Below, piece after piece: positions 39,190-55,936 of a stretch of 64,000 bases of DNA; within the stretch, counting starts at the first letter, position 1, and every line of letters begins with the position of its first letter. Origin of the DNA: an uncultured Prevotellaceae bacterium. GTDB lineage: Bacteria; Bacteroidota; Bacteroidia; Bacteroidales; Bacteroidaceae. Below the pieces are notes generated by a model. It saw nothing but the letters and a program-made list of their open reading frames with translations. It had not been told where the DNA came from and did not search any database. The position numbers were made by a program, and so were the translations under genes. The DNA lies in contig ONMR01000001.1 in NCBI GenBank assembly GCA_900318995.1, positions 124,001-188,000 on the forward strand. Reading direction: 5' to 3'.

Positions 39190-39381
39190 ATCTGAGTATT
39201 TGGAATGTTTTGTTTGCAATTATTGTGTAAAGATATGCAGTAATTGTTCTACAACACTCCTAATATTGATTTTTTTTATCTTTATTATACATGATTGTTG
39301 CATGATATGTTATTACTCAATAATTTTGTTCTTAAATGTGGAAGTTGTGGTTATGCATAACTATAACTTTATATATTCCAT

Positions 39382-41223
39382 TTGTTATATAGTGTGCTAA
39401 TAATAGTCCTTATTCTTGCTAATATGTTATTTTATTCAACTAAAAATCATAATTATCAATTAAGTTATGTATTTATTTTTTTATTGGTACTAAGCACCTT
39501 GGGATGTCGTCATTTGGATAATATAGCATTACAAAATATTACAAGTACTATGAATGAAGCCGAAAGTTTTATGATTGATAATCCGCAGTTGGCATATAAC
39601 CTTTTAGATAAAATTGATTACACATCTATTAAGAGAAATAAGGATAAAGCAAAATACGCATTGCTTTTTACTGAAGCACAATACAAAAACTACTATTATA
39701 TAGAAAACGACTCTTTGATAAAGGTTGCTGTATTGTATTATTCAAAACATAAGAAATGGGATTATTTGTTTCGCTCTTATTATAGTTTGGGTTGTGTCTA
39801 TTCCCTTTTAAAGTTATATCCAGATGCTGCAGTTGCATTTGCACAAGCAAATGAACTCATAGATTATGTAAAAAGTGATTTTCAAAAGGGTTTACTTTTT
39901 TCAAGAATGGGAGATATTTTCTATGATTGTTACGATTATAATAGAGCTGAGTATTATTACATAAATGCAACGTTTTTTTTTGATAAAGCTGGCAAAGATT
40001 ATTATACTGCGTGCGCAAAAGGGTCCATTGCCAATTGTAGAGTACAAACGGGTGATTATTACGGCTCCATTGATATATATAATGAATTAATAGATTGGAC
40101 AGATAGTGTTGATAGTTTAAACTTGAAACGTCAATATATGTCAAACAAGTACTTATGTTTAGTTATTTGTGGCGAAGAAGAACCTCAGACATCTCTAGAA
40201 AGTAATATTATGGACTATGAGTATTCTGAAAAATCATTCAGTATACTTAATATTTTAGCAAGATATCATATATCTAAGCATGATTTTATTCATGCTAGAG
40301 AACTGATTGATAAGGCTTGGACTGCCGAACCAGTAGATTCTGTTAATATATTGTTCACTGAATCACTTTATTACGAACAAGAAGGAGATTATAATAAAGC
40401 TCTATATTATTATCGCGAATCAATGTCTTTCAACAAACAAAAGGCACTCAAGGTGTTGAGTCAACCAATGATAGGAGCACAAAGTCAGTATTATCGTGCG
40501 GTGTCAGAGTTAGAGTCGCTTAAAGCTCGCCATAGATTGATATTGTTCTTTACTACTTTAATTCTTTTATTATTAATAATGGTTGCAACTACTTTGTTTA
40601 TAATTAATCGAAAGAGGAAGACTAATGAACAAATACGTCAGAATCTTTATGCAATAGATGAACTAACCGCTCGAGACTCAATCAGTCAAAATACAATACA
40701 TAATCTCAATGAATTACTTAAAGAGAAGAGCGAATCCATAGAAAATCTGAATGAACGTATTATTGATTTGTCGGCCAGTGAATCTTTAAGCAGCACAAAG
40801 ATACAACAATTAAATTTAAAAGTAAGAAAAATGCTACGTCAGCAATATGAGTTGCCTGATTATCTTTATACTAGGTATTATGAGCAGATTGATGACAACA
40901 AAAAAGCGGAACGCCTATATAAAATTGTAAAAAATCAGATAGCTGAGTTTACTAATTCAAAGAATATTGAAAGACTGGACAAAATGCTAAACGACACTTT
41001 TGGAGATTTGATGAACAAATTATCATCTCCAATATTGGAACTAAAACAAAAAGAAAAACTATTATTACGTTTAGTGTTAACAGATATATCTGCTAAATCT
41101 ATGGCTGCTATTCTAAATGATACTAATCAGAATATAAATCAGCGTAAGAAACGACTACTTGAAAAAATAGGTCGTAAAGATCCTCAACTACTGGTTGAAC
41201 TCATAGAGGCCCTAAATTCATAG
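39382..41223 (+). CDS. TPR transmembrane regulator with C-terminal HTH-like region
   Basis: 613 residues. An N-terminal hydrophobic/lipoprotein-like signal (a cysteine follows VLSTLG; Met15 at 39424 is an equally good start) precedes TPR repeats at about 60-370 (SYYSLGCVYSLLKLYPDAAVAFAQA). A transmembrane helix lies at about 392-412 (ILFFTTLILLLLIMVATTLF), then a coiled coil about 425-490, and a C-terminal region about 560-613 (DISAKSMAAILNDTNQNINQ, KKRLLEKIG) resembling the LuxR-like helix-turn-helix of Bacteroidota TPR regulators. It probably senses a periplasmic signal and controls nearby genes. First gene of the AT-rich island; a double hairpin terminator follows. Confidence 0.75.
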   Translation: MLYSVLIIVLILANMLFYSTKNHNYQLSYVFIFLLVLSTLGCRHLDNIALQNITSTMNEAESFMIDNPQLAYNLLDKIDYTSIKRNKDKAKYALLFTEAQYKNYYYIENDSLIKVAVLYYSKHKKWDYLFRSYYSLGCVYSLLKLYPDAAVAFAQANELIDYVKSDFQKGLLFSRMGDIFYDCYDYNRAEYYYINATFFFDKAGKDYYTACAKGSIANCRVQTGDYYGSIDIYNELIDWTDSVDSLNLKRQYMSNKYLCLVICGEEEPQTSLESNIMDYEYSEKSFSILNILARYHISKHDFIHARELIDKAWTAEPVDSVNILFTESLYYEQEGDYNKALYYYRESMSFNKQKALKVLSQPMIGAQSQYYRAVSELESLKARHRLILFFTTLILLLLIMVATTLFIINRKRKTNEQIRQNLYAIDELTARDSISQNTIHNLNELLKEKSESIENLNERIIDLSASESLSSTKIQQLNLKVRKMLRQQYELPDYLYTRYYEQIDDNKKAERLYKIVKNQIAEFTNSKNIERLDKMLNDTFGDLMNKLSSPILELKQKEKLLLRLVLTDISAKSMAAILNDTNQNINQRKKRLLEKIGRKDPQLLVELIEALNS

Positions 41224-41314
41224 TTTTACCATTTGACATCCATTAATAATGCAATTATATACAGAGATCATACCAATGTCACATTGTTCATAGTTGTAAT
41301 CGATGTAATGTGCT

Positions 41315-41384
41315 GATATGACAGCTGTTACAACAGCAATATGTCATATCATAAAACGGCTTTTTTTTTGGCCGTTTTTTTTGT
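41315..41384 (+). terminator. Tandem hairpins with T-run after the regulator gene
   Basis: GATATGACA (41315-41323) pairs with TGTCATATC (41342-41350) around an inner GCTGTT/AACAGC stem. Next, AAAACGGC (41353-41360) pairs with GCCGTTTT (41371-41378), followed by T residues. A strong rho-independent terminator. Confidence 0.75.
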
Positions 41385-41390
41385 CGCTAA

Positions 41391-41398
41391 TAACTTTG
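41391..41398 (+). promoter_or_regulatory. -7 element TAACTTTG, start of a long leader before the transglutaminase-like genes
   Basis: TAnnTTTG match immediately after the terminator. The next convincing gene starts at 41764, so the leader would be about 360 nt. It contains a possible 76-codon ORF (41483-41713) without family features and no obvious riboswitch. Confidence 0.45.
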
Positions 41399-41763
41399 CC
41401 ATAAAACAATAACCAATTAATTCAATGTCCTTTTAATGAGAAGAACGCATAAAAGAAATTGTTATTTACAATTGTTTTAATTATGGAAATAAATAGTCAA
41501 TTCCAGATTTGCTATATTCTAACAAGAACAAAGAACTATAGCCGTGAAATAAGAGAAGGAAGCTCTTCTCTTCTTAGAGGAATCGTTCATTCAACATGTC
41601 GCACATTATATATAAGCATGACTGAGATAACCGATTGTTATAATTATCATGCTACCGGAATGAGTATTTTATGGCTGCCGAATTCGTCAGATTCGAGTAT
41701 AAACAATAGTTGACTATGATGTTTATTTAATCCAAATGCATTAATAAAATCTTGTACTATTAG

Positions 41764-43164
41764 ATGTTCCATTATTATATTCATTTTTTCTTCATTTGTT
41801 TTGGGGTGTTAGCCTCTTGCTGTAAAAATTCTTCTTTTTACCAAGATACTATGAAAAGAGCTGATGGCAATCGTGCGGAATTGGATGGTGTGCTATATCA
41901 TTATCGTGAAGTTGATCCAAATCCCGAAAAACTAAGTGCGGCTAAATATCTTATAAAGAATCTTGCGGCTCATTACTCATATATGGGAAACGAAATCCAA
42001 GATTATTATGACTATGCTGCTCTTATTCTGAAGGATACATCTCTAAAGCCAGAACAGCAGCGTGACAGTTTGCTGGAAAAAACGGATTTAAAGTATTCAA
42101 GTTTGGCAGACAAAACAATATATGATGCTCAAATCATTAAAGCAAAATATCTGATAGATAATATCGACAAGTCTTATAATGCATGGAAAAACTATCCCTG
42201 GGCAAATCATCTGTCATTTGATGATTATTTAGAGTGGCTTTTACCATACAAAGGTGTAGAACTACAAGAATTAGACAGTTGGCGTGACACTCTTTATTCT
42301 CATTTTGGAGAAAAAATGAATAGTCAATTTAAGAATGATGTTGAATATGAAACGACTGTTGGTATGGCTGAAAAGATTAGAAATAACATATTTCAAAACA
42401 TTGGTCGTTATGGATTATACACCCGTTCAGGGTTGCCATTGTTGAATTCATATCTTTTACCGCGACAAACCTTTGGTGACATACAAGATTATGCTTTATT
42501 GGCACATCTTTCATTCAGGGCTTCTGGAATCCCATCCGTAATTGATGAAACTCCGGTGGGTGCTCGTGATATAGCGGCATCAAGATGGTTCGTGATATTG
42601 TCTGACCGTGGTCAAGAACTAGCTTCAGAATGGGATGTATCAACTCTCATAGGTGGCAGTTTCTTTCCATATGAACGTGGTCCGAAAGTATATAGGCGTA
42701 CATATGAAATTAATTCTGAAAGGAAGAAATACTATAATAATGCTAGATGGATTTATCCGTTTGATCTATTTCATAAAGATGTTACTTCACAATATTATTT
42801 AGACTCCGATGTATATCTAAACCTAAAGAAATGCACCCGTAGCAAGTTGAAAGACAAATATGTTTACATTGCTTCGGCAATCAGGATAAATCAGGAATCC
42901 CAGGCTGTGATAGCTGGACTTCCTGATTATCCAGGTTGGAAAATAGTTGATTTTGGGGTAATAAAGGGTAAAAAAGCTTTATTTAAGAATATGGGTCGTG
43001 AGGTCCTTTATTTGGCATTAGGTTATGACGGAAATTCATTAATACCATTGGACAATCCATTTATTCTGCATAAAGACGGATCTTTAGAGTTCATATTATA
43101 TGATACAGTAAAGTCAACTAGTCTCGATATGTGGAAAAATAACAATAACACTATAAGACCATGA
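41764..43164 (+). CDS. Transglutaminase-like lipoprotein, catalytic Cys and His apparently lost
   Basis: 466 residues. Lipoprotein signal (lipobox LASC near residue 19), helical N-terminal half, and a transglutaminase-like core about 225-295. Aligned with the downstream paralog, the nucleophile Cys is I240 (FGDIQDY versus YGSCKDY) and the His is S273 (AASRWFV versus DGHSWYV), while the SDRG Asp remains. The C-terminal beta domain about 350-450 (DKYVYIASAIRINQ) is also shared. It is thus a probable pseudoenzyme or binding protein. It overlaps the paralog by 4 nt (ATGA). Confidence 0.78.
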   Translation: MFHYYIHFFFICFGVLASCCKNSSFYQDTMKRADGNRAELDGVLYHYREVDPNPEKLSAAKYLIKNLAAHYSYMGNEIQDYYDYAALILKDTSLKPEQQRDSLLEKTDLKYSSLADKTIYDAQIIKAKYLIDNIDKSYNAWKNYPWANHLSFDDYLEWLLPYKGVELQELDSWRDTLYSHFGEKMNSQFKNDVEYETTVGMAEKIRNNIFQNIGRYGLYTRSGLPLLNSYLLPRQTFGDIQDYALLAHLSFRASGIPSVIDETPVGARDIAASRWFVILSDRGQELASEWDVSTLIGGSFFPYERGPKVYRRTYEINSERKKYYNNARWIYPFDLFHKDVTSQYYLDSDVYLNLKKCTRSKLKDKYVYIASAIRINQESQAVIAGLPDYPGWKIVDFGVIKGKKALFKNMGREVLYLALGYDGNSLIPLDNPFILHKDGSLEFILYDTVKSTSLDMWKNNNNTIRP

Positions 43165-45137
43165 AAAATATATTAGTTTTATTCTTATCTATTGTTGTTT
43201 GTCAGTCGGTCTTCAGTGGATGTAGTAAGGATTCTTTGTATCTGCGCTACTCCCTGAAGTCTGCTGGCAAAAATCGTTCTGAGCTGCGTAAAGTGATTTA
43301 TCATTATCGCACTGAAGATAATGATGCTCAGAAACTAGAGGCCGCAAAGTTCCTTATTACGAATATGATGGCTCATTACTCATATCGTGATACTTCTTCC
43401 ATCAATAGTTATTATAGGACTGCTATTGGCATACTAGGAAAAGGGCCAAGTCCTGATTGGGAACGTGATACTCTTAGGCAAATAAGCGACACTTATTACA
43501 ATGGTATAACAGAAGATGTCATTTCAGACGTTGAAGTTATGACTGCGAAATATCTAATATATAGTATTGATCATGCATTTCATCAGTGGAGAACCCGACC
43601 ATGGGCAAAGCACATTCCATTTGATATATTTCGAGAATGGATTCTACCTTATAAAGTAACAGAGCTGCAGAGTCTTGATGCATGGCGTGATACTTTGAGT
43701 CAACAATACAGCGATAGCATTAGTTCTGTCAGAGATCAATATGATAATCGAAACACTATTTATGGAGCTATAGAGATAATACGTAATGAAATAAACTCCA
43801 AACAATCGAGTATAGGCCATCGTGTGATTTGGGAAGAGCGTGGTAGTTTGCCAATGCGTAGTGCATCTACCATGATACGTATGACATATGGTAGTTGCAA
43901 GGACTATGTTACGATGGGGACAGCCGTATTTCGAAGTGTAGGATTACCAGCTACGGTAGATCAAGTACCTGTTTGGGGACGTAATAATGATGGGCATAGC
44001 TGGTATGTTTTTATTTCAGATCGTGGACGTGAGGAACCCACCATAAATTCTCTTATTGTGCCAGCTGGATTTCTGTTTTTTCCTTATGAGCGAATCCCTA
44101 AAGTATGGCGTAATACATATGCCATCAACCATGATGTTGTTAGATATAGAAATACAGCAAAGTTCGTATATCCTTTTGAGTTGTGTCAACAGGATGTGAC
44201 GGATCATTATAATCTTACATCCGATTTAAAAATTGAACTTTTTAAGGACATAAAACTAAAAGATAAATATGCATATATAGCTATGGCGGTTAATTCTAAA
44301 GGCCCTCAATGGAAAGTGTTAGATTTTGGGGATATTAGAAATGGTTTTGCATATTTTAAAAAAATAGGACGAAATATATTATATATTGTTTTAGGATATG
44401 ATGGAAAGAATCTTGTTCCTATTAGTTTTCCTTTTATTCTTCATAAAAATGGTAGTATTGATTATGTTAAAGGCAATCCGGATGAAATCATCAGTCTAGA
44501 TTTTCGCAGGAAATATTATGAATCTAGTACTGTGGTCGAGATGCGTAGAAGATTACTAGGCGGTAAACTCCAATGCGCCACAAAGGCAGACTTTAGTGAT
44601 TCAATTACTTTATATGTCATTGATAATGCGGAAATCCCCGGGCATATTGTATTAAATACATCTACCCCCTGTCGCTATTGGCGCTATTTAAGTCCGAATG
44701 ATTCTTGGGGCAGTATTTCAGAATTGTCATTTTATGATTATTATGGTAAAAAACTGATTGGAAATGGCGTTGCGAATCCTGAAGCGGGACAGGATGCTAT
44801 AGAGCGTGCTTTTGATGGCGATTTGCTGAGTAATTTTGAGATAAATCAGCCTAATGGTAATTGGGTCGGGATGGCGTTTAACGAGCCTACTATGGTTAAG
44901 TATGTAAGTATTTATCCTCGAGGTGATGATAATGATATATGTCCAGGTAATGAATATGAGTTGTTGTGTTTTCGGGGAGATGATTGGTATTCATTGGGGT
45001 GTCAAATAGCAAAAGATAATTATTTGCATTATGATAATATTCCTACTAATACATTATTATGGATTCGTAATCATACACGAGGAAATGACGAACGTCCATT
45101 TATTGTTACATCTGACTATTCAATACAATGGTGGTAA
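43161..45137 (+). CDS. Transglutaminase-like lipoprotein with C-terminal discoidin-type domain
   Basis: 658 residues. Lipoprotein signal (VFSGCSKD), helical N-terminal region about 25-215, transglutaminase-like core with candidate triad C246 (YGSCKDY), H279 (DGHSWYV) and D287 (ISDRG), a beta domain about 370-430, and an F5/8C-like carbohydrate-binding region about 500-658 (ISELSFYDYYGKKL, AFDGDLLSNFE). The family includes cysteine peptidases and cross-linking enzymes acting on peptides or glycan-linked peptides; here probably on the cell surface. It is 192 residues longer than its upstream partner, the difference being the C-terminal domain. Followed by a terminator. Confidence 0.82.
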   Translation: MKNILVLFLSIVVCQSVFSGCSKDSLYLRYSLKSAGKNRSELRKVIYHYRTEDNDAQKLEAAKFLITNMMAHYSYRDTSSINSYYRTAIGILGKGPSPDWERDTLRQISDTYYNGITEDVISDVEVMTAKYLIYSIDHAFHQWRTRPWAKHIPFDIFREWILPYKVTELQSLDAWRDTLSQQYSDSISSVRDQYDNRNTIYGAIEIIRNEINSKQSSIGHRVIWEERGSLPMRSASTMIRMTYGSCKDYVTMGTAVFRSVGLPATVDQVPVWGRNNDGHSWYVFISDRGREEPTINSLIVPAGFLFFPYERIPKVWRNTYAINHDVVRYRNTAKFVYPFELCQQDVTDHYNLTSDLKIELFKDIKLKDKYAYIAMAVNSKGPQWKVLDFGDIRNGFAYFKKIGRNILYIVLGYDGKNLVPISFPFILHKNGSIDYVKGNPDEIISLDFRRKYYESSTVVEMRRRLLGGKLQCATKADFSDSITLYVIDNAEIPGHIVLNTSTPCRYWRYLSPNDSWGSISELSFYDYYGKKLIGNGVANPEAGQDAIERAFDGDLLSNFEINQPNGNWVGMAFNEPTMVKYVSIYPRGDDNDICPGNEYELLCFRGDDWYSLGCQIAKDNYLHYDNIPTNTLLWIRNHTRGNDERPFIVTSDYSIQWW

Positions 45138-45171
45138 TAGAGAGTGTTTTTATGATTTGGAAAAGAAAGAG

Positions 45172-45221
45172 GGGATAGAAACGCCAATCCTCTTGCAAAG
45201 AATATGTTTCTATCCCTTTTT
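45172..45221 (+). terminator. Rho-independent terminator after the transglutaminase-like pair
   Basis: An 11-bp stem GGGATAGAAAC/GTTTCTATCCC (45172-45182 and 45206-45216) is followed by TTTTT. Confidence 0.8.
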
Positions 45222-45369
45222 CCCAAATTATTAGTATTAATCTAAAATTTGAATACCGCAAAGATAATATAAGTAAATGAATTGAATTATTGGAATATAG
45301 TAATTATTACCTATTCAAAGCTCGCTAGAGGCATTTATCTGGCAATTAACATATTTAATTGTATATTTT

Positions 45370-45927
45370 ATGAAACACAAATTATTAATGGCAATATCGG
45401 CCTCAGTTGTACTTGTAGGAGCAAATTTGTTTGTAATTTCTGCAAAACAAGGAAATGTAAATTGTAAAGAGTTGCTCGTTAAGGCTTTTACGCTTAATCA
45501 CTTTGCTTATGCAGATGATCCAGGCGAAATTCCCGGTTCAATTAAGTCTCGTGGGGTTGATTATAGCAATGAAATTGCAGATTGTTCAATCATGGAAACG
45601 GAAGCAATAAGTGTGGATGTATCCATTAGTTCTACAGCAGGTCAAAAATTATCGAAATATATAAACGGATCTGGTAATGGAGGTTATAATGCAGGTCCAA
45701 TTTCAGCTTCTCTTTCAATCAGTGGTGGTGCTGACTCAAACAATTCTTCAAACAACCAAAATGGCGGAAGAATAAAAGGAACGATATACATTAATGTAAA
45801 GACGGCTAAGCCAGAATATGTTTATTGTGATCGCTCCAATTATAATGATTGTTGGTCAATACCAGATCCATGTAATACAATGAAGATGTTGCTGCGTAGA
45901 GACATACGAAAAGAGTTTGGGATTTAG
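45370..45927 (+). CDS. Secreted Cys-containing protein with NVEALA-like leader
   Basis: 185 residues. A hydrophobic segment (5-25) is followed by a 23-residue spacer ending NHFAYA-DD (43-50), which parallels the NVEALA leader end of Bacteroidota peptides and gives a likely cleavage after A48. The mature part has a Gly/Ser/Asn-rich middle (about 95-130, SGNGGYNAGPIS) and a C-terminal C-x7-C-x6-C cluster. Together with C32 and C72 the precursor has five Cys. No known enzymatic domain. It is the likely product handled by the genes that follow: a CxxC protein and a signal peptidase lie in the same run. Confidence 0.68.
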   Translation: MKHKLLMAISASVVLVGANLFVISAKQGNVNCKELLVKAFTLNHFAYADDPGEIPGSIKSRGVDYSNEIADCSIMETEAISVDVSISSTAGQKLSKYINGSGNGGYNAGPISASLSISGGADSNNSSNNQNGGRIKGTIYINVKTAKPEYVYCDRSNYNDCWSIPDPCNTMKMLLRRDIRKEFGI

Positions 45928-45938
45928 CAATCAGTTTT

Positions 45939-47153
45939 ATGAGAAGAATACTTAATACTATGGCCTGTTTGAGTCTGTCATTAAGTATATCGTGTAATCA
46001 TTTGAGTAATTCTGCTATGGCAGATTACTCAAATGTTACTCAAATACAGTATGACAAAGACGCTGAAGATGTGATTGTAATTGATAGGGTCGTTGATAGT
46101 TGTAAATATGTAAGATTGAGAACGGATAAGTCTTATTTGATAGGCAAAATAGATCAGTTATTGTTATGTGATTCTTTTATTGTTGTTATAGATAAGCATA
46201 TTGCACAATCCATTTTAGTTTTTGATTATGATGGTAATTTTTTAAACCGCATCTCAAGACTAGGAAATGGTCCAGGAGAATATTTAATTATTAATCATGT
46301 TGCTATAAATGATAGAAAGGAAGTATGTATTTTAGATAATGCCAAAGAGCGTATAACGATATTTGATATAAAAGGTAAGATGATTGAATCCAAACATTTG
46401 CCTTTTAGAGGAAAGAGTCTTGAATATCTTGGCAATAATAATTTACTATTTAGAGTTGAAAACTGTTATGCCGAAGTTGGTTATAAAGAAATAGAAAAAT
46501 CAAGTTTCGTATTAACAGAAATGAATGGAAATATTATCTATACTTTCGGTGATGACCATTCATACAGGAATCCATCTTATCAGAGTTATTCAGATAACAT
46601 ATATAAATATGACGGGAGACTTTATGGGCGTTTAGATCATGGAAATTTAGTATATGAATTTGATAAAGATTCGGTTATAGGACGGTTTGAACTATCATTA
46701 AAGAATGATAAGTTATATTCACCAACAATAGAAGATATGTCAACCCCAGGTTTATATAAAGAAAAAAGGTTACAACAACCATCATTCTCTGGCACCTTTT
46801 TCATTTGTGCGGATTATTCATGTTTTAGAATGATGTTTCCGGAAAGAACAAATTTGTATACATGGTTTTTCAGAATCAATAATACAGGAAGGATACTTAC
46901 ATTATCAACTGAGTCAAATGATCCTTTGTTAGCATGTTTCAATAATCCACTATCTAGATGGCGTGACAATACATTAGTTCAAGAAATCTCTCCTACAGTG
47001 TTATTATCTAGAAAAAATGAGATTCTTGAGAACAGCAAAATCGAAAAAAAGGAAGCGTTGTTTGACGGTCTTTCTTTAGAGGATAATCCTGTTCTGTTTT
47101 TCTATTCTTTTAATTCAACCGTCCTTATAAATGGAGATGTGTCGCAGCAATAG
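45939..47153 (+). CDS. 6-bladed beta-propeller lipoprotein
   Basis: 404 residues. Lipoprotein signal (LSLSISCNH, Cys at about 19) and a repetitive beta pattern typical of the Bacteroidota 6-bladed propeller family (NHL-like): ILVFDYDGNFLNRISRLGNGPGEY is the diagnostic blade, then ICILDNAKERITIFDIKGK-type blades. Such proteins sit on the cell surface or in the periplasm and bind ligands; functions are mostly unknown. It starts 11 nt after the NVEALA-like gene, and its 3' end overlaps the thioredoxin-like gene by 23 nt, so the genes are coupled. Confidence 0.82.
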   Translation: MRRILNTMACLSLSLSISCNHLSNSAMADYSNVTQIQYDKDAEDVIVIDRVVDSCKYVRLRTDKSYLIGKIDQLLLCDSFIVVIDKHIAQSILVFDYDGNFLNRISRLGNGPGEYLIINHVAINDRKEVCILDNAKERITIFDIKGKMIESKHLPFRGKSLEYLGNNNLLFRVENCYAEVGYKEIEKSSFVLTEMNGNIIYTFGDDHSYRNPSYQSYSDNIYKYDGRLYGRLDHGNLVYEFDKDSVIGRFELSLKNDKLYSPTIEDMSTPGLYKEKRLQQPSFSGTFFICADYSCFRMMFPERTNLYTWFFRINNTGRILTLSTESNDPLLACFNNPLSRWRDNTLVQEISPTVLLSRKNEILENSKIEKKEALFDGLSLEDNPVLFFYSFNSTVLINGDVSQQ

Positions 47154-47736
47154 TTATTTGAAAACTTGTTGTCTGTTGTTATTGGTGTTAAATTTTCTTT
47201 TATTGGGGATAAGTAGCAATGACGTAGTAAAAACTCCCAATAATAATGAATCTACAGCTATAGACAGATATCAATCATCTTATATAGATTTATTGGAAAA
47301 TGATGGGCTAGTTATGCCTAATTTGGAGTTACTAGATGTCTCTGCTAAATCTAAGAAGTTGTTAACAGAGCTATGTGATGATGATTCCATTCTGTTTATA
47401 TGCAGAGTATCACAATTTCATTGCCAAGATTGTTCTAGTTATGTATTAGAGAAAGCGATAAAAATGTTTGAAGGAAATTCAACAAATATGAAATTAGTTT
47501 TTTTTTGTGACTATGAATACCGATCATTAAAAATCTTTTTGGACAAACATCCAAACTTAATTGGTTTTGAAGTTTATCAAGTTCCTATTGTTAATTTGCC
47601 TATTGAGGCAAGAACATATCCATATTTTTTTACTCTATCAAATAATATGGTTGTACATGATATTTTTCTTCCAGATATAGATGATCCTATTAGAACAGAC
47701 ATTTATTGGAATAGTATTTCTCAAAAATGGAGATAA
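47131..47736 (+). CDS. Membrane-anchored thioredoxin-like protein with CQDC motif
   Basis: 201 residues. N-terminal hydrophobic anchor (about 12-27), then a compact alpha/beta domain with FICRVSQFHCQDCSSYVLE near residue 100. The CQDC motif sits after the first core strand, as in thioredoxin folds, followed by MKLVFFCDYEY and a TYPYFF segment in the cis-Pro position. It probably makes or isomerises disulfides, for example in the Cys-rich protein encoded two genes upstream; that link is inferred. Met3 (47137) is an alternative start. It overlaps both neighbours. Confidence 0.65.
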   Translation: MEMCRSNSYLKTCCLLLLVLNFLLLGISSNDVVKTPNNNESTAIDRYQSSYIDLLENDGLVMPNLELLDVSAKSKKLLTELCDDDSILFICRVSQFHCQDCSSYVLEKAIKMFEGNSTNMKLVFFCDYEYRSLKIFLDKHPNLIGFEVYQVPIVNLPIEARTYPYFFTLSNNMVVHDIFLPDIDDPIRTDIYWNSISQKWR

Positions 47737-49397
47737 GCCATAATATCCGGAGGATGGTTACTTCTTTTGTGTCAATGGTAGACATATTAATTGTAATTCT
47801 GTTCATGTTTATGAAAATATCGAACAAGAATAATGGAGACGATATATCTGTAATGTTGTTCTCTTTTGTCGACCTGTTGTTTGTTGGTTATTTCTTACTA
47901 AGGATAATATTTCAGTTTGGGAAAAGAATTTCGCATGATTTAGTAATAATTGTAATAGAAATAGTTGCTCTTTATGAATCTATATTGGGAATATTACAGA
48001 TAATTGGTGTGATAAAGTCAAATAATTATTTATTCTTATGTACTGGAACATTTGATAATCCCGGCCCTTTGGGCGGTTTTTTAGCGATATGTATAAGTAT
48101 TTCAATTGCAGTGGTACATGAAAAAACTGTGAATAGAGGCAAAAAGCCTTGTTCAACATTTGATAAAATGATTCTTATGATGTCTTATTTGTCAATAACA
48201 TTTTGTACTATACTCATACCATCCACTCAAAGCCGCGCAGCATTATTGTCAATCATATTTACATCTTTTATATATCTATCAAAAGAATCAATAATTCGTT
48301 CTTGGATAATAGATCACTTATTTTTTTTCATTATTACCATTATTTTTTTAATGTCTTTAGTTTTAATTTTTAAGAGGCCATCATTAAACGGGCGGCTAAT
48401 AACTTATAAGATGGAACTGATGACAATTATAAGGAATGAATACAAAGGAGTTGGGCTTGGCCATTTTTCAAATGCATATGGAAAAACGCAAAGAGAATAT
48501 TTCTCAAAATCAATTTATATTAATGAAGGAGATCTTATTTACTCCGAATCAGATAAGGAACGAATCTTTGCGGATAATCCTAAGGTCGGTTTCAATGATT
48601 ATTTACAATTTGGAATTGAGTTTGGTGTCGGTCCTTTGATACTATTATTATTATTCATTATGCTGATAGGATTTCGACTATTCAAATACGATTCTCCTTT
48701 ATGCCAAGGACTGATTAGTTTAATTGTTTTTGCTTTTTTTTCTTATCCGTTTTCAATATGGGCGTTTCGTTTATTATTTATTGTATTTGCAGCATATGCC
48801 GGAAGTGAAATAAAGGTAAACAATTCACCTAGGGGGTGCAATCTGTTTTTTGCATTAATATATATAGTTCCGCTTGCAATCTTCTTTGGAAGCATTGAAG
48901 TTATAAGGACCATACATCAGTATGAAACAAAGTGGGAAAGTCAGAGGTTTATTTTTGGCAATGGTGATTATTTATCATATGAATACTGTTGTTCTCAATT
49001 GTACCCTAATATGAAACACAATTGTGCTTTTTTATACGAATACGCTTATTCACTATATATGAATAGAGATCTAGTTGGAAGTGAAACAATTGTAAACCAG
49101 AGTCTTACATTGAGCGGAAATGCGCTGTTATTCATATTGTTGGGTGACATTCATAAAGAGATGGGACTAATCAAAGAAGCTGAAAAAGATTATCTTGATT
49201 CTTTTTTTGCCATACCAGACAGATTGTATCCAATGTATAAACTCGCAGTCTTGTATCATGATAGTAATCAAATAACGAATTATCATAATACGGTTCGTAG
49301 CATCGATAATTTTCATCCTAGAATAGAGTCCCAGGCAACTAATGACATACGTGATATGTTGAATGAACTAAATGATCCAAATGATGAATCAATGTGA
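47727..49397 (+). CDS. O-antigen-ligase-like (Wzy_C) membrane protein with C-terminal TPR tail
   Basis: 556 residues with about 11-12 membrane helices to residue 385. The O-antigen ligase hallmarks STQSRAALLSI, a periplasmic loop with VGLGHFSNAYGKTQ, and FNDYLQFGIEFGVGP are present. The C-terminal about 400-550 is TPR-like (LLGDIHKEMGLIKEAEKDYLDSF). The family transfers or polymerises lipid-linked sugars, but relatives also occur as glycosyl-to-protein ligases. No glycosyltransferase is nearby, which makes protein glycosylation or a different acceptor worth considering. Overlaps the preceding and following genes (10 and 26 nt). Confidence 0.78.
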   Translation: MEISHNIRRMVTSFVSMVDILIVILFMFMKISNKNNGDDISVMLFSFVDLLFVGYFLLRIIFQFGKRISHDLVIIVIEIVALYESILGILQIIGVIKSNNYLFLCTGTFDNPGPLGGFLAICISISIAVVHEKTVNRGKKPCSTFDKMILMMSYLSITFCTILIPSTQSRAALLSIIFTSFIYLSKESIIRSWIIDHLFFFIITIIFLMSLVLIFKRPSLNGRLITYKMELMTIIRNEYKGVGLGHFSNAYGKTQREYFSKSIYINEGDLIYSESDKERIFADNPKVGFNDYLQFGIEFGVGPLILLLLFIMLIGFRLFKYDSPLCQGLISLIVFAFFSYPFSIWAFRLLFIVFAAYAGSEIKVNNSPRGCNLFFALIYIVPLAIFFGSIEVIRTIHQYETKWESQRFIFGNGDYLSYEYCCSQLYPNMKHNCAFLYEYAYSLYMNRDLVGSETIVNQSLTLSGNALLFILLGDIHKEMGLIKEAEKDYLDSFFAIPDRLYPMYKLAVLYHDSNQITNYHNTVRSIDNFHPRIESQATNDIRDMLNELNDPNDESM

Positions 49398-50229
49398 AGA
49401 TAAAGATAGTAAGTTTTCCTTCTATGAGAAGCATAGAGAATGTATTATAAGAATCCGGAACTTGGTATACATAATATGTGTATTACCAGTCGTGTTTTTA
49501 TTTCTGTTGCGTTCATTTTTTTTTGTGAAATATACAATACTATCAGGCTCCATGCTTCCGACTATACAGGTTGGTGAATCAGTTTTCATTAGCAAATTGT
49601 TGTACGGATGGAGGATTAAAGCATTATGGTCAGATAGACCTGATTATTTCTATAGGATACATGGAACAAGAGATATTGTACCAGGTGATATTATTGTTTT
49701 CAACGCTCCTTTCGGTGAATATGATTTAGGAACAATTAGATTCAACTCCGATATTAAATACTGTAAAAGGGTATTAGGTTCTCCTGGAGATAGGATAGGA
49801 ACGGTGGATGGTCATTGCTGGAATGACAAGGTGCTACAACCAATTGGTGTCTTGGATGAACAAAAAAAGTTGCGTTGGATGTTTGATAGCATATTTGTAT
49901 GGAGACAGACATATAATGTTATACCTATGGAAGAAAAGTCTTGGAACATAAAGAATTGGGGACCTCTTATTGTTCCCCAAAAAGGGTTGACTATAGAACT
50001 TGATTCTTTTTTGTTAAATATATATAGGCCAATTATTGAATATGAAACGGGTGAAGAGTTGTCAAATAAAGTGTTAGAATACACCTTTGATAATAATTAT
50101 TATTTTGTGATAGGTGACAATGTTATTGATTCATTCGATAGCCGTTATTGGGGATTTCTACCTGAAGATTTCGTAATAGGAATAGTTAATCGAAAGGATA
50201 ATAGAAACAAAAAGAAACATACACATTAA
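49372..50229 (+). CDS. Signal peptidase I (S26 family), cluster-associated
   Basis: 285 residues. One N-terminal membrane helix (about 33-52), catalytic Ser in SGSMLPTIQVGE, general-base Lys in YCKRVLGSPGD, box E-like GDNVIDSFDSRYWGF. All catalytic parts of a LepB peptidase are present. It overlaps the O-antigen-ligase-like gene by 26 nt. Because the cluster encodes a secreted protein with an unusual long leader ending AYA, a dedicated maturation peptidase is a reasonable inference; the housekeeping LepB is presumably elsewhere. Confidence 0.88.
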   Translation: MIQMMNQCEDKDSKFSFYEKHRECIIRIRNLVYIICVLPVVFLFLLRSFFFVKYTILSGSMLPTIQVGESVFISKLLYGWRIKALWSDRPDYFYRIHGTRDIVPGDIIVFNAPFGEYDLGTIRFNSDIKYCKRVLGSPGDRIGTVDGHCWNDKVLQPIGVLDEQKKLRWMFDSIFVWRQTYNVIPMEEKSWNIKNWGPLIVPQKGLTIELDSFLLNIYRPIIEYETGEELSNKVLEYTFDNNYYFVIGDNVIDSFDSRYWGFLPEDFVIGIVNRKDNRNKKKHTH

Positions 50230-50303
50230 TAATCTAATAATCTTTGAATATTGTTTTTTTCAAGACCCTTATTATTAACAAAGACTTTGTTTGTAGAATA
50301 AAT

Positions 50304-51803
50304 ATGAGAAAGTCCTTTTATTGGAGAGCGGTATTGCCCTTTATGATGTGTTTTGGAGTTGGTAGTCCTTGCGGTGCTCAAGTAATTGTGCCAAGGACTC
50401 TTGATATGCGCCAGGTGGTGGAGCTGGCTCATAAGCACTCTATTGCGTCTATGAGTAACCGTAACAATTTTGCGGCTTCTTACTGGAGCTACAGGTCTTA
50501 CAGGGCTCAACTATTGCCATCGCTCAGTCTTAATGCCAATCTGGTCAATTTTAACCGGTCTCTTGTTCAGTTGCAGGATTATAATAGCGGTGCTATCAGT
50601 TATAGGGCTAATTATAACATGAAGAATGATGTATCGCTGAATTTCAGACAGAATATTCCTTGGACGGGTGGATCGTTGTCTCTGTCTACGCAGCTGTCCA
50701 GGCTGGATCAGTACAGTCCAGCCAGGCTTACCACATATTATGCCCAGCCTGTCTATCTTACTTATGCGCAGACTCTGTGTGGGTATAATCAGTTTAAGTG
50801 GCGTAAGGAGACTGAGCCTAAGCAATATGAGATTGCCAAAAGGCAGTACATTGAAAGTATGGAGCAGCTTAGCCAGACTACGGTGGCTCTGTTTTGGAAC
50901 TGTGTCAGTACCAAGGAGAGCTATGAGAGGGCTGTTAAGAGTTTTGATGAGGGTAAACGTCTGTTTGAGGCAGGGCGGACGCGTTTTGAGATGGGTACCA
51001 TTACGCGTGACCAGCTAATGCAAATCGAGGTACGTATTCTTAATGATTCTCTAAGCGTGAGCAACAGCATGGTCAACTTACGTACTACCATGAATCGTCT
51101 CTGTTCTTACATAGGGTATCAAGAGGATACCGACCTTATCCTTATCATTGATTATAACATTCCTGATATTACGCTTGATTATAATGATGTTGTGGAGCGC
51201 GCTCTGCAGAACTCATCGTTCAGTCTAAGGCAGGATATGCAGTATATTCAGGCGGATGAGAGTGTAGCTAGGGCTAAGGCCGGCAGGAGCCTGTCGGCAA
51301 GTGTTAATGCTCGTTTTGGTATGTCGGGATCGGCCGACAGGTTTGATGATACGTTTATTCAGCTTAAGGACCAGGAGGTGATAGGGGTACAGTTTACCAT
51401 TCCTATCCTTGACTGGGGGCAGGGCCGGGGCAATGTGCGTATGGCCGAGGCCAGAGCCCAGACTACACGTTATGAACTGGAGCAGTCTCTTATTGATTAC
51501 CGTCAGGAACTATATACACAGGTGATGCAGTTTAATGACCAGCGTAGCCAGTGTGAGATTGCACGGCGCGTGGCCCTCTTGGCTGAAGAGAGCTATGAGT
51601 CGGCTTTCCATAATTTTGGCAGCGGTAGCATGTCTATGACGCAGTTGGATCAACTAAAGGAAAAGCGCGATCAGGCTGTCAGTTTATATCTTGATAAGGT
51701 GGCCGGTTTCTGGAAGTACTACTTTGGCATACGCAGGGCTACGCTTTTTGACTATGAGTCTGGGGTGGACATTAGCGCTCATTTTGATAAACTTGTAAAA
51801 TAA
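50304..51803 (+). CDS. TolC-family outer-membrane channel protein
   Basis: 499 residues from the ATG at 50304 (MRKSFYWRAVLPFMMCFGVG, signal peptide ending CGAQ). Two OEP repeats with long helices: about 35-240 and 260-490 (AEARAQTTRYELEQSLIDYR). It forms the outer-membrane exit duct for the adjacent HlyD/RND pumps. The longer frame to 50244 adds residues without signal features. It lies 74 nt after the signal peptidase gene with no clear terminator between, so cotranscription with the AT-rich cluster is possible. Confidence 0.88.
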   Translation: MRKSFYWRAVLPFMMCFGVGSPCGAQVIVPRTLDMRQVVELAHKHSIASMSNRNNFAASYWSYRSYRAQLLPSLSLNANLVNFNRSLVQLQDYNSGAISYRANYNMKNDVSLNFRQNIPWTGGSLSLSTQLSRLDQYSPARLTTYYAQPVYLTYAQTLCGYNQFKWRKETEPKQYEIAKRQYIESMEQLSQTTVALFWNCVSTKESYERAVKSFDEGKRLFEAGRTRFEMGTITRDQLMQIEVRILNDSLSVSNSMVNLRTTMNRLCSYIGYQEDTDLILIIDYNIPDITLDYNDVVERALQNSSFSLRQDMQYIQADESVARAKAGRSLSASVNARFGMSGSADRFDDTFIQLKDQEVIGVQFTIPILDWGQGRGNVRMAEARAQTTRYELEQSLIDYRQELYTQVMQFNDQRSQCEIARRVALLAEESYESAFHNFGSGSMSMTQLDQLKEKRDQAVSLYLDKVAGFWKYYFGIRRATLFDYESGVDISAHFDKLVK

Positions 51804-51809
51804 CTGTTG

Positions 51810-52895
51810 ATGAAAGCATATAGTATTATTGTTATTTGGGCAGTCGCGGCTGTTGCTTGTTGCTTCAAGGATAAGAGTGATAAGTATCATACCGAAGATA
51901 CCACCCGTATGATACACGGCACTTACAATAAGGAGAAGAATGTGGTTGTCGTGATGCCTTTGGAGCGTAAGGTGTTTAAGAAGCAATTGGTATGTAATGG
52001 TAAACTGGAAGCTCAGAGCAAGATTGCCCTACAGTTTGAGGCTCAGGGTAAGATTGAACAGATAAATGTACGTGACGGACAAAAAGTGCAGAAGGGGCAA
52101 GTGCTGGCATCGCTTGAAAAGGAGCAGTCGCGCCGTCATCTTGAACAAGCACGCCTGCAGTTTGACAAAGCAGAGATGAGCCTGGCTGACCGTCTGCTGG
52201 ACTATGGTTATACTCTGGCTGATACTGCGCGTATACCAGCTGACCAGAAGCGCGTAATATATATCAATACTGGTTTTATTGATGCGCAAATGTCACTTGA
52301 CAATGCCCAGCGTACCTATAGGCTGTGTGATATTGAGGCTCCGTTTGCAGGCAAGGTGGCCAGCCTTAAAGGTCGAGTATATGAGCAGGGCGGTCAGTTG
52401 TGTACTCTAATTGACGATAGCCGATATCTGGTGCGTTTCTGTGTCCTGGAGACTGAATACGGGTTTGTGCATGTGGGCCAGGATGTTCTGGTATCTCCGT
52501 TTGTAAACAGAGATGTCGTTCTTAAGGGTACTATACTATCTATTAATCCTACTGTAGACCAGAATGGCCAGATTGCCGTAACGGCGCAGGTACCGGGATC
52601 GGATCGGCTGATGGACGGTATGAATGTGCGTATTACTGTGGAGAACAGTATCCCGGACCAGTTGGTGGTGCCTAAGAGCGCCGTTGTGATACGTGATAAT
52701 ATGGAGGTGCTTTTCAGAATAGATCCCAATACTGGTCATAGCCTATGGACTTACGTAAATGTGATTATGTCCAACACCACGGAGCATGTGGTGGAGGCCA
52801 ACAAGGAACGTGGTGCAGACCTTAATGTGGGTGATAGGATAATTATAAGAGGCAACCTTAACTTGGGGGATGACGCGGAGGTGGTAATTGAGTAG
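51810..52895 (+). CDS. HlyD/MFP-type periplasmic adaptor lipoprotein
   Basis: 361 residues. Lipoprotein signal (AVAAVACC), barrel-sandwich/lipoyl halves around a helical hairpin (GKIEQINVRDGQKVQKGQVLASLE, then helices about 100-140), beta-barrel and membrane-proximal domains (VDQNGQIAVTAQVPG). It joins the RND pumps to the TolC protein. The ATG at 51810 is preferred over the TTG at 51807. Starts 6 nt after the TolC stop. Confidence 0.9.
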   Translation: MKAYSIIVIWAVAAVACCFKDKSDKYHTEDTTRMIHGTYNKEKNVVVVMPLERKVFKKQLVCNGKLEAQSKIALQFEAQGKIEQINVRDGQKVQKGQVLASLEKEQSRRHLEQARLQFDKAEMSLADRLLDYGYTLADTARIPADQKRVIYINTGFIDAQMSLDNAQRTYRLCDIEAPFAGKVASLKGRVYEQGGQLCTLIDDSRYLVRFCVLETEYGFVHVGQDVLVSPFVNRDVVLKGTILSINPTVDQNGQIAVTAQVPGSDRLMDGMNVRITVENSIPDQLVVPKSAVVIRDNMEVLFRIDPNTGHSLWTYVNVIMSNTTEHVVEANKERGADLNVGDRIIIRGNLNLGDDAEVVIE

Positions 52896-52900
52896 AGGTC

Positions 52901-55900
52901 ATGTTCAAGGGATTAATTAAGCGGCCCATAGCGGTGCTGATGGTGTTGATTGCGGTTATGGTGTTGGGTATAACGGCCATACGCAAACTGCCGGTATCGC
53001 TGGTGCCGGATATAGATGTTCCGCAAATAACTGTTCAGGTTACATCCTCCGACCGCAGTGCTCGCGAACTGAATGATGTGCTGCTGGCTCCGTTAAGGTC
53101 TCAGTTGGTGCAAGTAGATAACCTCAAGGATATAGTATGTACGGCACGCGACGGAAAAGGTCTGATAGAGATGACTTTTGACTACGGAGCCGATGCCGAT
53201 TACATTTTTATTGATGTGAATGAGCGTGTGGACCGCGCTACCAGCGGCTGGGATGTCAGGGAGGAGAGACCGATGATTGCGCGTGCCAGCGCTACGGACA
53301 TTCCGGTTTTTTTTATTAATGTATCACTTAAAGACGGAAAGCAAGCGGGGGTTTCCCAGATGCTTAAGATGAGTGATTTTTGTCGTCAGGTAATAGTACG
53401 AAGGCTGGAGCAGCTGCCGCAGGTGGCGATGGTGGATATATCCGGGTTGATGTTTCCACAGTTGCTTATTATTCCTGATATGGAGAAACTGCGTGCCATA
53501 GGAGTTGATGAGAGTGCTCTAAGCGGTGCCATAAGGAGTGCTAACGTTAGTCTTGGCAGCCTGTCGATTTGTGACGGCGAGTATCGTTTTGACGTGCGTT
53601 TTGAGTCCAGCGTGGTTACTCGCGATGATGTGGAGAACGTGTGGCTCAAGTTGGGCGACAGGACTTATCAGATAAAGGATTTGGCCAAGGTGCGTGAGGA
53701 GCCGCAGCGTCTGAAGGGTATGGTGACAGCCGATGGAGTCCAGTGTATTACAATGGCAGTGATTAAACGGACCGATGCCCGCATGGCCGACCTTAGGGAA
53801 GGCATTCAAAACCTGATGAGAGTGTTTGAGGATGATTATCCTGACCTGCAGTTCCAGATTACACGTGACCAGACGGAGTTGCTGGATTATTCTATCAATA
53901 ATATGGTGCTTAACCTTCTGTTCGGCGCATTGTTTGCCTGCATAATTATTTTCTTTTTCATGCAGGATTTGCGAAGCCCTCTGCTGGTGGTCCTAACCAT
54001 ACCCACAGTGCTTATATTGTCGTTCCTGTTATTCTATGTGCTGCATATATCCATAAACATCATATCGCTGTCCGGTCTGGTGCTTGGCCTGGGTATGATG
54101 GTGGACAACTCCATTATAACAATAGACAACATTACACAGCGCTGGCTTAAGGGAGAACTGCTGGCCGATGCATGCGTTTACGGCACGCAGGAGATTTTTG
54201 CACCTATGCTCAGCTCAGTGCTGACCACTTGCGCAATTTTTATTCCGCTGATTTTTTTGAGCGGAATTGCCGGCGCTCTGTTCTATGATGAGGCGATGGC
54301 GATTACAATCACTCTGCTGTCAGCCCTGATTATGTCCGTACTGGTGATACCAGTGTTCTACTACAGGTTCTACAAAAATAAGCCCTGTTTTACGCCTAAC
54401 GGATTAATAAGCCACAAAAGCGTGGGTGTCATGACTAACGGCTATAAGCGCTTGATGAGTTGGTTTTTCCGCCGTAGAGGTGTGATGTGGGGAATACTGG
54501 CCGCCTCTATGCTACTTATAGGTGTGTTGTTTGTCAGTCTTGACAAGCAAAAACTGCCTACTCTGTCCCACACTGATATGCTGCTTAATATTGAATGGAA
54601 CGAGCGCATATCAATAGACGTGAATAACCAGCGCTGTGAGCAGATACTCTCCCGCTTCCCAGATATGGTAGAGCAATATACGTCTATGGTGGGGGTGCAA
54701 CAGTTTGCGCTGTCGCATACCCGTGAGATGGGGCCGTCCGAATCAACCATATATATCAAGGCCGATGGTGCTGACCGGATTGATTCCATTGAGTCTATGG
54801 CAAAAGATTACATTAGCCGTAACTGGCCAGATGCTGTATGCGGCATTCAGGCATCGGGCAATATATTTGATATGCTGTTCTCTGATATTGAGGCACCTCT
54901 AGTGGCGCGTATCAAGTTGACCAACGGTCTTATCCCTGATCCGGACCAGATCACATCACTTATTTACTCGTTGCGTTATGCGCTGCCGGGTTATTATATC
55001 CAGTTGCCCGAGTGGAATGAGTACATTGAGTTAATTACGGACCCGGAGCGTTTGGCTATGTATGATGTAAGTTATGGACAGATACTCTCTTATTTGCAGA
55101 ACTCGATGAATGCCGGTCAGGTTCTGCGTATATCAAAGGGCGATTTTTCTATGCCTGTGGCGATCGGAATGGGCGAAAAGCAGGCGTGTGATCTGATTCA
55201 GGGCAGTTACATTGATACCCGTGGAGGTCGCGTTCCGCTGGAGATACTGCTCAAGGAGACACGCAACCGTGACCTTAAGCAGATTACAAGCGGTGTGGAC
55301 GGTGAGTTCTATCCGTTGGTGCTTGATGTCAAGGGACGCAATGCCCGCCATGTAATGGATGTTATCAAGAGTGTAGTCCGGCAGGATGGAAGGTTTGTAG
55401 TTAGTTTCTGCGGTACATATTTCAGTAACCGAGATATGATAAAAGAGTTGACAGGGGTTCTGGTGATATCGATTCTGCTGCTTTTCTTTATATTGGCGGC
55501 ACAGTTTGAGAGCCTAGTGCAGCCGTTCATAATACTAAGTGAGTTGATTATTGACATTTTTGCTGCGATGGGCGTGCTGTGGATATTTGGTGAGAGCCTT
55601 AATCTGATGTCCATGATAGGAATGGTGGTTATGTGCGGTATAGTTATCAATGACTCTATTCTTAAGGTGGATACCATTAACCGTCTGCGTGAACAGGGGA
55701 AGGGTCTTAAGCATGCCATCCTTGAGGCTGGGTCCCGCAGGTTGAAAGCCATACTTATGACATCGCTTACCACAATTCTGGCAATTGCTCCGTTCCTGGT
55801 GCGTGGTGATATGGGTAGTGACCTGCAATATCCTCTGTCACTATCTTTAATATCGGGTATGATAGCTGGTACGTTTGTCAGTATTTTCTTTGTGCCTCTG

Positions 55901-55936
55901 TCTTATTACGTAATCTATAAAAGGACTGAAAGATGA
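52901..55936 (+). CDS. RND efflux permease, first of a pair
   Basis: A 1011-residue AcrB/MdtB-like proton-driven pump with 12 membrane helices and two large periplasmic loops. TM4 has LGLGMMVDNSIITIDNITQ, with Asp retained at the first relay position and Asn at the second. Second-half motif GMVVMCGIVINDSILKVD. With the second RND gene (ATGA overlap) it probably forms a heterotrimer, as MdtBC does. Substrate unknown. Confidence 0.92.
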   Translation: MFKGLIKRPIAVLMVLIAVMVLGITAIRKLPVSLVPDIDVPQITVQVTSSDRSARELNDVLLAPLRSQLVQVDNLKDIVCTARDGKGLIEMTFDYGADADYIFIDVNERVDRATSGWDVREERPMIARASATDIPVFFINVSLKDGKQAGVSQMLKMSDFCRQVIVRRLEQLPQVAMVDISGLMFPQLLIIPDMEKLRAIGVDESALSGAIRSANVSLGSLSICDGEYRFDVRFESSVVTRDDVENVWLKLGDRTYQIKDLAKVREEPQRLKGMVTADGVQCITMAVIKRTDARMADLREGIQNLMRVFEDDYPDLQFQITRDQTELLDYSINNMVLNLLFGALFACIIIFFFMQDLRSPLLVVLTIPTVLILSFLLFYVLHISINIISLSGLVLGLGMMVDNSIITIDNITQRWLKGELLADACVYGTQEIFAPMLSSVLTTCAIFIPLIFLSGIAGALFYDEAMAITITLLSALIMSVLVIPVFYYRFYKNKPCFTPNGLISHKSVGVMTNGYKRLMSWFFRRRGVMWGILAASMLLIGVLFVSLDKQKLPTLSHTDMLLNIEWNERISIDVNNQRCEQILSRFPDMVEQYTSMVGVQQFALSHTREMGPSESTIYIKADGADRIDSIESMAKDYISRNWPDAVCGIQASGNIFDMLFSDIEAPLVARIKLTNGLIPDPDQITSLIYSLRYALPGYYIQLPEWNEYIELITDPERLAMYDVSYGQILSYLQNSMNAGQVLRISKGDFSMPVAIGMGEKQACDLIQGSYIDTRGGRVPLEILLKETRNRDLKQITSGVDGEFYPLVLDVKGRNARHVMDVIKSVVRQDGRFVVSFCGTYFSNRDMIKELTGVLVISILLLFFILAAQFESLVQPFIILSELIIDIFAAMGVLWIFGESLNLMSMIGMVVMCGIVINDSILKVDTINRLREQGKGLKHAILEAGSRRLKAILMTSLTTILAIAPFLVRGDMGSDLQYPLSLSLISGMIAGTFVSIFFVPLSYYVIYKRTER

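Follow-up and report, generated by a model that had tools for sequence, protein, structure and literature searches.

Why do a small secreted precursor, a signal peptidase, a propeller lipoprotein and an O-antigen-ligase-like protein stand side by side in one AT-rich block, and what might they do together? We addressed this question in a 64,000-nucleotide stretch (the window) of an uncultured Prevotellaceae bacterium (GCA_900318995.1, contig ONMR01000001.1, positions 124,001 to 188,000), in which a sequence-only reading had proposed that eight genes may make, mature and display a secreted Cys-rich protein. The cluster is larger than first noted and comprises 12 genes on the + strand, 39382-59094: a protein with tetratricopeptide repeats (TPR) that is likely a regulator (TPRreg), two transglutaminase-like proteins (TG1, TG2), the peptide precursor, a beta-propeller lipoprotein (BP), a CxxC protein (TRX), an O-antigen-ligase-like protein (OAL), a signal peptidase (SPase), and the exporter genes TolC, MFP, RND1 and RND2. 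From gene content, conservation, linkage, a leader pattern, two-module evolution, an array structure and plasmid copies, we consider that the locus probably (probability about 0.65) belongs to a system conserved in Bacteroidales and loaded by cassettes, in which small secreted peptides that contain Cys are matured and exported. That such a system exists and is made up of two modules is well supported; the steps of cutting, disulfide formation and export are what we infer for it.

The families of this cluster recur together when other genomes are examined, and the lack of co-occurrence that the sequence-only reading had named as refuting was not observed. This recurrence gives good support to the earlier suggestion that one secreted product, which contains Cys, is processed in a coordinated way. 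OAL was found in 24 of 41 genomes, among them 23 of 25 within the genus (window genome counted), and a shorter, cluster-type SPase is present in exactly the same 23 genus genomes, with a chance of 1 in 300 for the shared absences. The two genes are at most 1.5 kb apart in 15 of these 23; in four of the remaining eight (G003, G018, G023, G024) the contig carrying OAL is short or ends near it. In a sample of the order (148 genomes, at least 90% complete except that of the window), strong matches to OAL (E <1e-30) were found in 13 genomes and to TG (E <1e-20) in 19, with both in 11 (Fisher p 4e-10). In nine of these 11 genomes OAL and TG are no more than about 6 kb from each other; the distance is 18 kb in G444, and in G385 the two genes are on different contigs. 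At E 0.001, 69 of 148 genomes have an OAL match and 51 of 148 a TG match, many of them partial.

Relatives of the locus were read in 40 stretches from OAL matches and 78 named loci from a search with the TG2 alignment, which was used since a scan with the CxxC protein as the sole query gave no relatives. Neighbours were counted within 8 kb of those distinct OALs which have at least 5 kb on both sides (44 of 89), and identical proteins or identical C-termini were counted once. Near these 44 OALs, TG is found 36 times, BP 29, TRX 26, SPase 25, the peptide 23, MFP 20, RND 18, TolC 18 and TPRreg 14 times. Because a match to OAL or TG2 is how the loci were found, the counts of these two are biased upwards; ten precursors of the window type were placed on the peptide list manually, and the hidden Markov model labels come from iterative building on these same loci. 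MFP or RND is near 18 of the 25 SPase-bearing OAL loci. The order in many relatives is TPRreg, (DUF3244-like), TG1, TG2, peptide, BP, TRX, (DUF1573-like), OAL, SPase, TolC, MFP, RND, RND, while an alternative order has the peptide-to-SPase block ahead of TG1; DUF3244 is the name that we presume for the gene between TPRreg and TG1, and one of the DUF1573-like genes is annotated as such. Assemblies of gut Bacteroidales, many of them of herbivore origin, make up most of the named sources, and more distant loci are labelled Rikenellaceae, Dysgonamonadaceae, Marinilabiliaceae and Salinivirgaceae. A second locus type, with TG and OAL and without SPase, BP, TRX and peptide, accounts for 12 of the 44.

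In the 20 loci with all parts, the similarities of peptide, BP and TRX vary together (r 0.90-0.92), as do those of OAL, SPase and TG2 (r 0.68-0.85), and the peptide against SPase or TG2 gives r 0.22-0.28. When similar peptides were removed (n=17), the values are 0.52-0.59 for peptide-BP-TRX and 0.68-0.83 for OAL-SPase-TG2, and the cross pairs computed (peptide-SPase, peptide-TG2, BP-TG2 and BP-OAL) range from -0.11 to 0.13, with BP-OAL, the sole OAL cross pair recomputed, at 0.09. Median guanine-cytosine (GC) content over all loci is 0.33-0.38 for the cassette genes, 0.41-0.43 for OAL and SPase, and 0.46-0.50 for TG, TolC, MFP and RND, in a table based, like the correlations, on greedy calling of open reading frames (ORFs), which drops overlapping genes. 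From these sequence comparisons, it is well supported that peptide, BP and TRX form one module, and OAL, SPase and TG a separately evolving one; exchange of cassettes between stable machineries fits the pattern of correlation and GC.

Copies of the set are also found on plasmids of human-gut bacteria. For example, the Phocaeicola vulgatus plasmid NZ_CP096966.1 (L298) contains an NVEALA peptide, BP, a redoxin, SPase, OAL, a short TG1-like ORF and TG2, as well as two further NVEALA genes; a gene for a propeller or a BF3164-type lipoprotein follows each of them. A 7.8 kb segment of it (L298 11400-19200) is 99.9% identical in the Phocaeicola dorei plasmid NZ_CP072250.1; in the alignment the P. dorei copy falls into two pieces, and an IS1380-type transposase lies under the match. 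According to PMC13114119, a transposon library exists for the cultured P. vulgatus CL10T00C06, a plasmid carrier of a set. In Phocaeicola massiliensis OY726023.1 (L299 1315-27486; deposited as a plasmid), six NVEALA peptides and six BPs form an array, followed in the same direction by SPase, TG2, OAL, MFP, RND, TolC, RND and TPRreg. BP comes directly after five of the peptides and a CxxC-type gene after the sixth. Five leaders of this array are 93-98% identical, while their cores share 15-33% (shuffled 23%, standard deviation 6) and the BPs 19-25%. A second, short SPase-like ORF (155 aa) is located inside the array. In total, the window OAL has matches in five plasmid records, and of the four examined, that of Bacteroides finegoldii is of the second locus type.

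The peptide precursor of the window consists of a presumed leader (45370..45513, + strand; 48 codons ending in NHFAYA at residues 43-48), with a predicted cut after Ala48 suggested by position and the AxA pattern, and a presumed mature region (45514..45924, + strand) with four cysteines (C72, C153, C161, C168). These four are invariant in all seven large-form sequences; an NVEA motif can still be recognised in two of the seven. The product had been called Cys-rich, and with four Cys in about 137 residues beyond the presumed leader it is only moderately so. Its description as NVEALA-like holds for the leader layout, with an AxA-like site and a downstream propeller, and for the slot that it occupies, which in relatives is held by NVEALA-leader peptides, but not at the level of Pfam, where PF14055 gives no match. 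The AF2 model of the precursor is unreliable (pLDDT 44).

In order to describe the relatives' peptides, we collected 35 small ORFs with an NVEALA-like motif near cluster genes; PF14055 is matched by 23 of the 31 leaders given to Pfam. The leaders are 35-45 residues long (35 rows), and the site is located 14-27 (median 21) residues past the hydrophobic core. Ordinary Sec signal peptides are cleaved a few residues past the core, and a dedicated peptidase is thus an attractive explanation for a site so far downstream. The mature parts contain 136 Cys in 2409 residues (5.65%), compared with 32.7 expected at a background of 1.36%, and 34 of the 35 peptides have at least two. Since PF14055 matches are rare (four in 295 genomes of the class, three above the cut-off), a leader profile of our own (A3) was built, and it matches 18 of the 148 order genomes at E 0.001. 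In seven of these the match reaches at least position 45 of 50, and they include strong TG in six and strong OAL in five; the other 11 were not counted, as their matches stop at 29-42 and resemble plain signal peptides.

Directly behind the precursor, with the start only 11 nt downstream, lies the 6-bladed beta-propeller lipoprotein BP (DUF5128; 45939..47153, + strand; PF17170 114 bits, cut-off 22.9), the presumed partner of the peptide. Each of the 25 leader places within the fetched stretches (28 places in all) has a BP at most 2.7 kb downstream, a fairer figure than the 58 of 60 distinct peptides with a downstream propeller, which is biased because many were picked near propellers. Within 2.5 kb, BP follows 16 of 16 called peptides and 21 of 122 control ORFs (p 4e-11). 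The third cassette gene, the secreted or membrane CxxC protein TRX (47131..47736, + strand; C98 and C101), is thioredoxin-like by weak evidence: the CxxC is kept in 18 of 18 aligned proteins, with AhpC-TSA matched by one of the 18 and ResA at only E 0.07. With these cysteines and the four invariant ones of the large precursors, the disulfide formation suggested earlier is plausible.

The SPase (49372..50229, + strand) is an S26 signal peptidase by both the Ser60/Lys132 dyad and the Peptidase_S26 match (PF10502 102 bits, cut-off 22.9). Ser60 and Lys132 are kept in 49 of 49 cluster SPases, which form a clade distinct from six LepB. All 25 genus genomes have S26 peptidases, and the long LepB (about 480-520 residues) is present in 24 of them and was not seen in G001.

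OAL (47727..49397, + strand) is a Wzy/O-antigen-ligase-like membrane protein with C-terminal TPR. The Wzy_C domain is detected in 16 of 19 family members, although not in the window OAL. In its structure model (pLDDT 86.6), the search gave mostly TPR matches, none at E <=0.001, and WaaL (7tpg) is among them (TM-score 0.35/0.47, E 0.014). Among 87 aligned OALs, R170 is kept in 84 and R223 in 86. The His of the H-[NSD] motif in WaaL/PglL-type ligases, which we take to be catalytic, is absent from the window OAL, where F289 stands instead; the position is F or Y in 79 of 87 OALs and H in one, compared with H in seven of 13 other Wzy_C proteins. Glycan attachment, as put forward by the sequence-only reading, is thus disfavoured by the F/Y that most OALs have for the presumed catalytic His, and also by what we assume to be the O-glycosylation sequon of Bacteroidota, found in two of 35 peptides versus 5.4 expected. 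General O-glycosylation of the peptide was considered as well and is weakened by this count below expectation. A polymerase-like activity of OAL may be retained, because Wzy polymerases, we presume, may not need that His. Phage records searched for OAL gave none.

The pair of transglutaminase-like proteins is a pair of unequal members. TG2 (43161..45137, + strand), a lipoprotein, has Cys246 and His279, and within its family Cys is kept in 20 of 20 and His in 20 of 21 ungapped sequences, while its Transglut_core score (21.1 bits) is just below the cut-off of 23. A profile of 17 TG2 proteins matches the carbohydrate-binding module 2yb7 (E 4e-20) in the C-terminal region. TG1 (41764..43164, + strand) lacks both the active-site Cys and His and is a pseudoenzyme; among 14 TG1 proteins, 13 have I and one has A in the Cys column, and none has H in the His column. 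Upstream, TPRreg (39382..41223, + strand) contains an N-terminal TPR-like region, one transmembrane segment, a coiled coil and a weak C-terminal GerE-like helix-turn-helix (HTH). It is likely a regulator, as was proposed, with TPR_2 near the cut-off (26.6 of 27 bits) and a weak HTH match (GerE E 0.083).

Downstream of SPase, the cluster continues with a TolC-family outer-membrane channel (50244..51803, + strand; OEP 102.4 bits, cut-off 22), the RND periplasmic adaptor MFP (51807..52895, + strand; TIGR01730 128.4 bits, cut-off 94.9) and two inner-membrane pumps, RND1 (52901..55936, + strand; NF033617 E 3e-119, below the curated cut-off) and RND2 (55933..59094, + strand; RND family match below the curated cut-off), which overlap by 4 nt. 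Pump, adaptor and TolC genes together make up, by gene content, an RND tripartite exporter, and paired RND genes recur in relatives. The families matched by the 12 scanned cluster proteins include neither an ABC ATPase or permease nor a C39 peptidase. The proposal of surface display had overlooked both this adjoining exporter and the cassette structure of the cargo, and with the exporter the reading therefore moves from display to export.

All eight ORFs noted before are present on the + strand, and they are AT-richer than their flanks (GC 0.294-0.366, versus 0.485 in window 1-39000 and 0.451 in 56000-64000). TolC, MFP and RND1 are host-like in GC (0.455-0.474). The tight packing described for 45370-50229 stands (gaps of 11, -23, -10 and -26 nt), but the run does not end there: TolC, MFP, RND1 and RND2 extend it to 59094 with gaps of 14, 3, 5 and -4 nt. 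Further upstream, TG1 and TG2 overlap by 4 nt, and gaps of 232 nt and 540 nt separate TG2 from the precursor and TPRreg from TG1. The family calls made earlier are borne out by Pfam for the propeller and the signal peptidase and nearly so for TG2, and the precursor, TG1 and the CxxC protein are without a supporting family. Between TPRreg and TG1 we found a terminator-like hairpin (41353-41378, + strand), overlapped by a promoter-like site (41367-41398, + strand) that matches TTTG-N-TAnnTTTG, presumably the Bacteroidales-type promoter consensus; it is a consensus match alone, since four matches in the window versus 1.27 expected, reached by six of 100 shuffles, are within chance. On the basis of the two elements, both of them consensus matches within chance expectation, TPRreg may be a separate transcription unit and the remaining genes one transcript. 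No Rfam families or tRNAs were found in the window. A defence-system reading was dropped, as PADLOC gave no match for eight proteins.

Around the cluster, a thioredoxin/ResA-like protein is encoded directly upstream on the opposite strand (38131-39219; ResA model E 5e-20, below the cut-off) and, as far as seen, lies outside the conserved cluster. Downstream, a minus-strand protein (59133-60137), which we take to be Rpn/transposase-like, has a long AEGRAEGR repeat tail, and four successive small secreted paralogues (61201-63897) share a similar N-terminal motif (KAGD-ISG-V in three).

Taken as a pathway, the precursor would enter the inner membrane through its N-terminal hydrophobic segment, and the dedicated SPase would cut some 20 residues past the core, at an AxA/S-type site that reads NHFAYA here and NVEALA in most relatives. 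The CxxC protein may then set or proofread disulfides, and the TG pair, with one predicted active member and one predicted pseudoenzyme, could act on the peptide, or retain it at the membrane, together with the Wzy-like TPR protein. The two RND pumps, adaptor and TolC, to judge from their frequent linkage, would move the product across the outer membrane, and the propeller lipoprotein would be a peptide-specific partner, serving as self-protection, receptor or carrier. Thus the presumed cassette is peptide, propeller and CxxC protein, and the presumed machinery SPase, OAL and TG, in most cases accompanied by the RND set. In its most specific form, this would be an undescribed peptide export pathway of gut Bacteroidales, combining NVEALA-type leaders and a dedicated SPase that cuts them, CxxC folding, a TG pair, a His-less Wzy-like protein and a two-RND exporter with plasmid-borne weapon/immunity or message/receptor cassettes, which we propose only tentatively.

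For the peptides themselves, a role as messages or weapons between bacteria may be envisaged, and antagonism is placed ahead of signalling. That the peptides are bacteriocins and the propellers their matched immunity proteins, carried as exchangeable toxin-immunity cassettes, is a possibility that we hold with some reserve. It would account for leaders that are almost identical while their cores resemble one another no more than shuffled sequences do, each with a divergent propeller, for a low-GC cassette that varies apart from the machinery, and for plasmid copies nearly identical between two species. Fulvocin C-related proteins (NCBIfam NF033852) in related TG-OAL loci (L300 8063-8767 and L128 16054-16755) point the same way, but this is a name by homology and seven of nine cargo candidates tested have no match; moreover, the propellers, at 350-400 residues, are large for immunity proteins. 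Alternatively, the peptides could be extracellular messages, sensed by the propeller or by the periplasmic TPR of TPRreg, which would adjust transcription. We regard this as rather unlikely: a TPR-transmembrane-HTH-like protein does stand beside the window cluster, 14 of 44 OALs have one no more than 8 kb away, and there is one at the end of the L299 array, yet the other 30 OALs have none within 8 kb, and the HTH match is weak.

Somewhat more doubtful still is a surface structure, in which TG2 and OAL would cross-link or glycan-attach the peptides to the envelope for display with the propeller. TG2 with its retained Cys/His and carbohydrate-binding-like C-terminus would suit this, and so would the Wzy-like character of OAL; the scarcity of O-sequons and the near-absence of His in OAL speak against it, although this His is not universal in other Wzy_C proteins either. 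Finally, the block could be a genomic island of unrelated envelope genes with no joint function, for which its low GC might be cited. The counts already speak against such a coincidence, as the gene families recur jointly across taxonomic families and on plasmids, and we consider it very improbable.

Several observations weigh against a joint maturation and export system. Seven of the 25 SPase-bearing loci (L031, L040, L048, L059, L103, L253, L254) have no RND or MFP within 8 kb, and none is labelled in the 31 kb read of the P. vulgatus plasmid, so the RND set may act in trans or not belong to the system. The parts also occur separately: TG-TolC-MFP-RND-RND loci without OAL, SPase and peptide in the stretch (L071, L087), propeller arrays with two NVEALA peptides and no OAL or TG match in G426 (L250 and L251, both near contig ends), and OALs about 41% identical to that of the window without a labelled cassette (L032, L033), preceded by what we take to be ribosomal-protein and EF-Ts genes. 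The cassette-OAL correlation is 0.51-0.61 over all 20 loci, the peptide-BP correlation drops to 0.27 at the strictest cut (n=16), and co-variation of neighbours may mean only joint inheritance and not physical contact. The Ala at leader position -3 (30 of 35) and the A, S or T at -1 (32 of 35) are partly built into the leader-picking motif, and the leader motif of the window precursor is divergent.

Few secreted peptides are known from Bacteroidales, the order that dominates the mammalian gut. If the proposed system is real, it would be a widespread route of peptide maturation and export with machinery unlike known bacteriocin exporters, and leader plus propeller would serve as a search rule for many uncharacterised peptides. 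It would also give a joint role to the NVEALA family and to genes annotated as 'hypothetical', 'O-antigen ligase' and 'transglutaminase', a role that could be examined in the cultured P. vulgatus CL10T00C06. Among the matches listed from open-licence literature, titles and abstract starts contain no description of the system and none names NVEALA, and matches to PF14055 resemble malaria gene names or enzyme profiles. 'Propeller' is not in the main text of PMC13114119 or PMC9308784, and 'signal peptidase' is absent from the former and appears in the latter as signal peptidase II only.

Compared with known systems, the cluster combines familiar parts in a different way. The cluster SPase has the Ser/Lys dyad and boxes in common with housekeeping LepB, but belongs to a separate clade, LepB having a median identity of 26% to the window enzyme. 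OAL shares two arginines with WaaL/PglL/Wzy proteins (PF04932), with Wzy_C detected in 16 of 19 of its family members and WaaL among the structure matches, and differs from them by F/Y at the presumed catalytic His, the C-terminal TPR and the linkage to a peptide cassette. With NVEALA peptides (PF14055), whose Pfam name implies no function, the window precursor has in common the Lys-rich start, hydrophobic core, AxA-like site near residue 40, Cys core and neighbours, but it is longer (185 aa) and outside the model. The fulvocin C-related proteins, not found in the window, lie beside TG and OAL in the two sister loci, where the cargo is different and longer. Loci of bacteriocins and ribosomally synthesized and post-translationally modified peptides encode a leader peptide, a dedicated protease and an exporter, for example the C39-peptidase ABC exporters and the bacteroidetocins. 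A conserved leader with a variable core is found here too, as are a protease of the locus's own, an exporter linked to it and a matched partner gene, with an S26 signal peptidase in place of C39 and RND-TolC in place of ABC.

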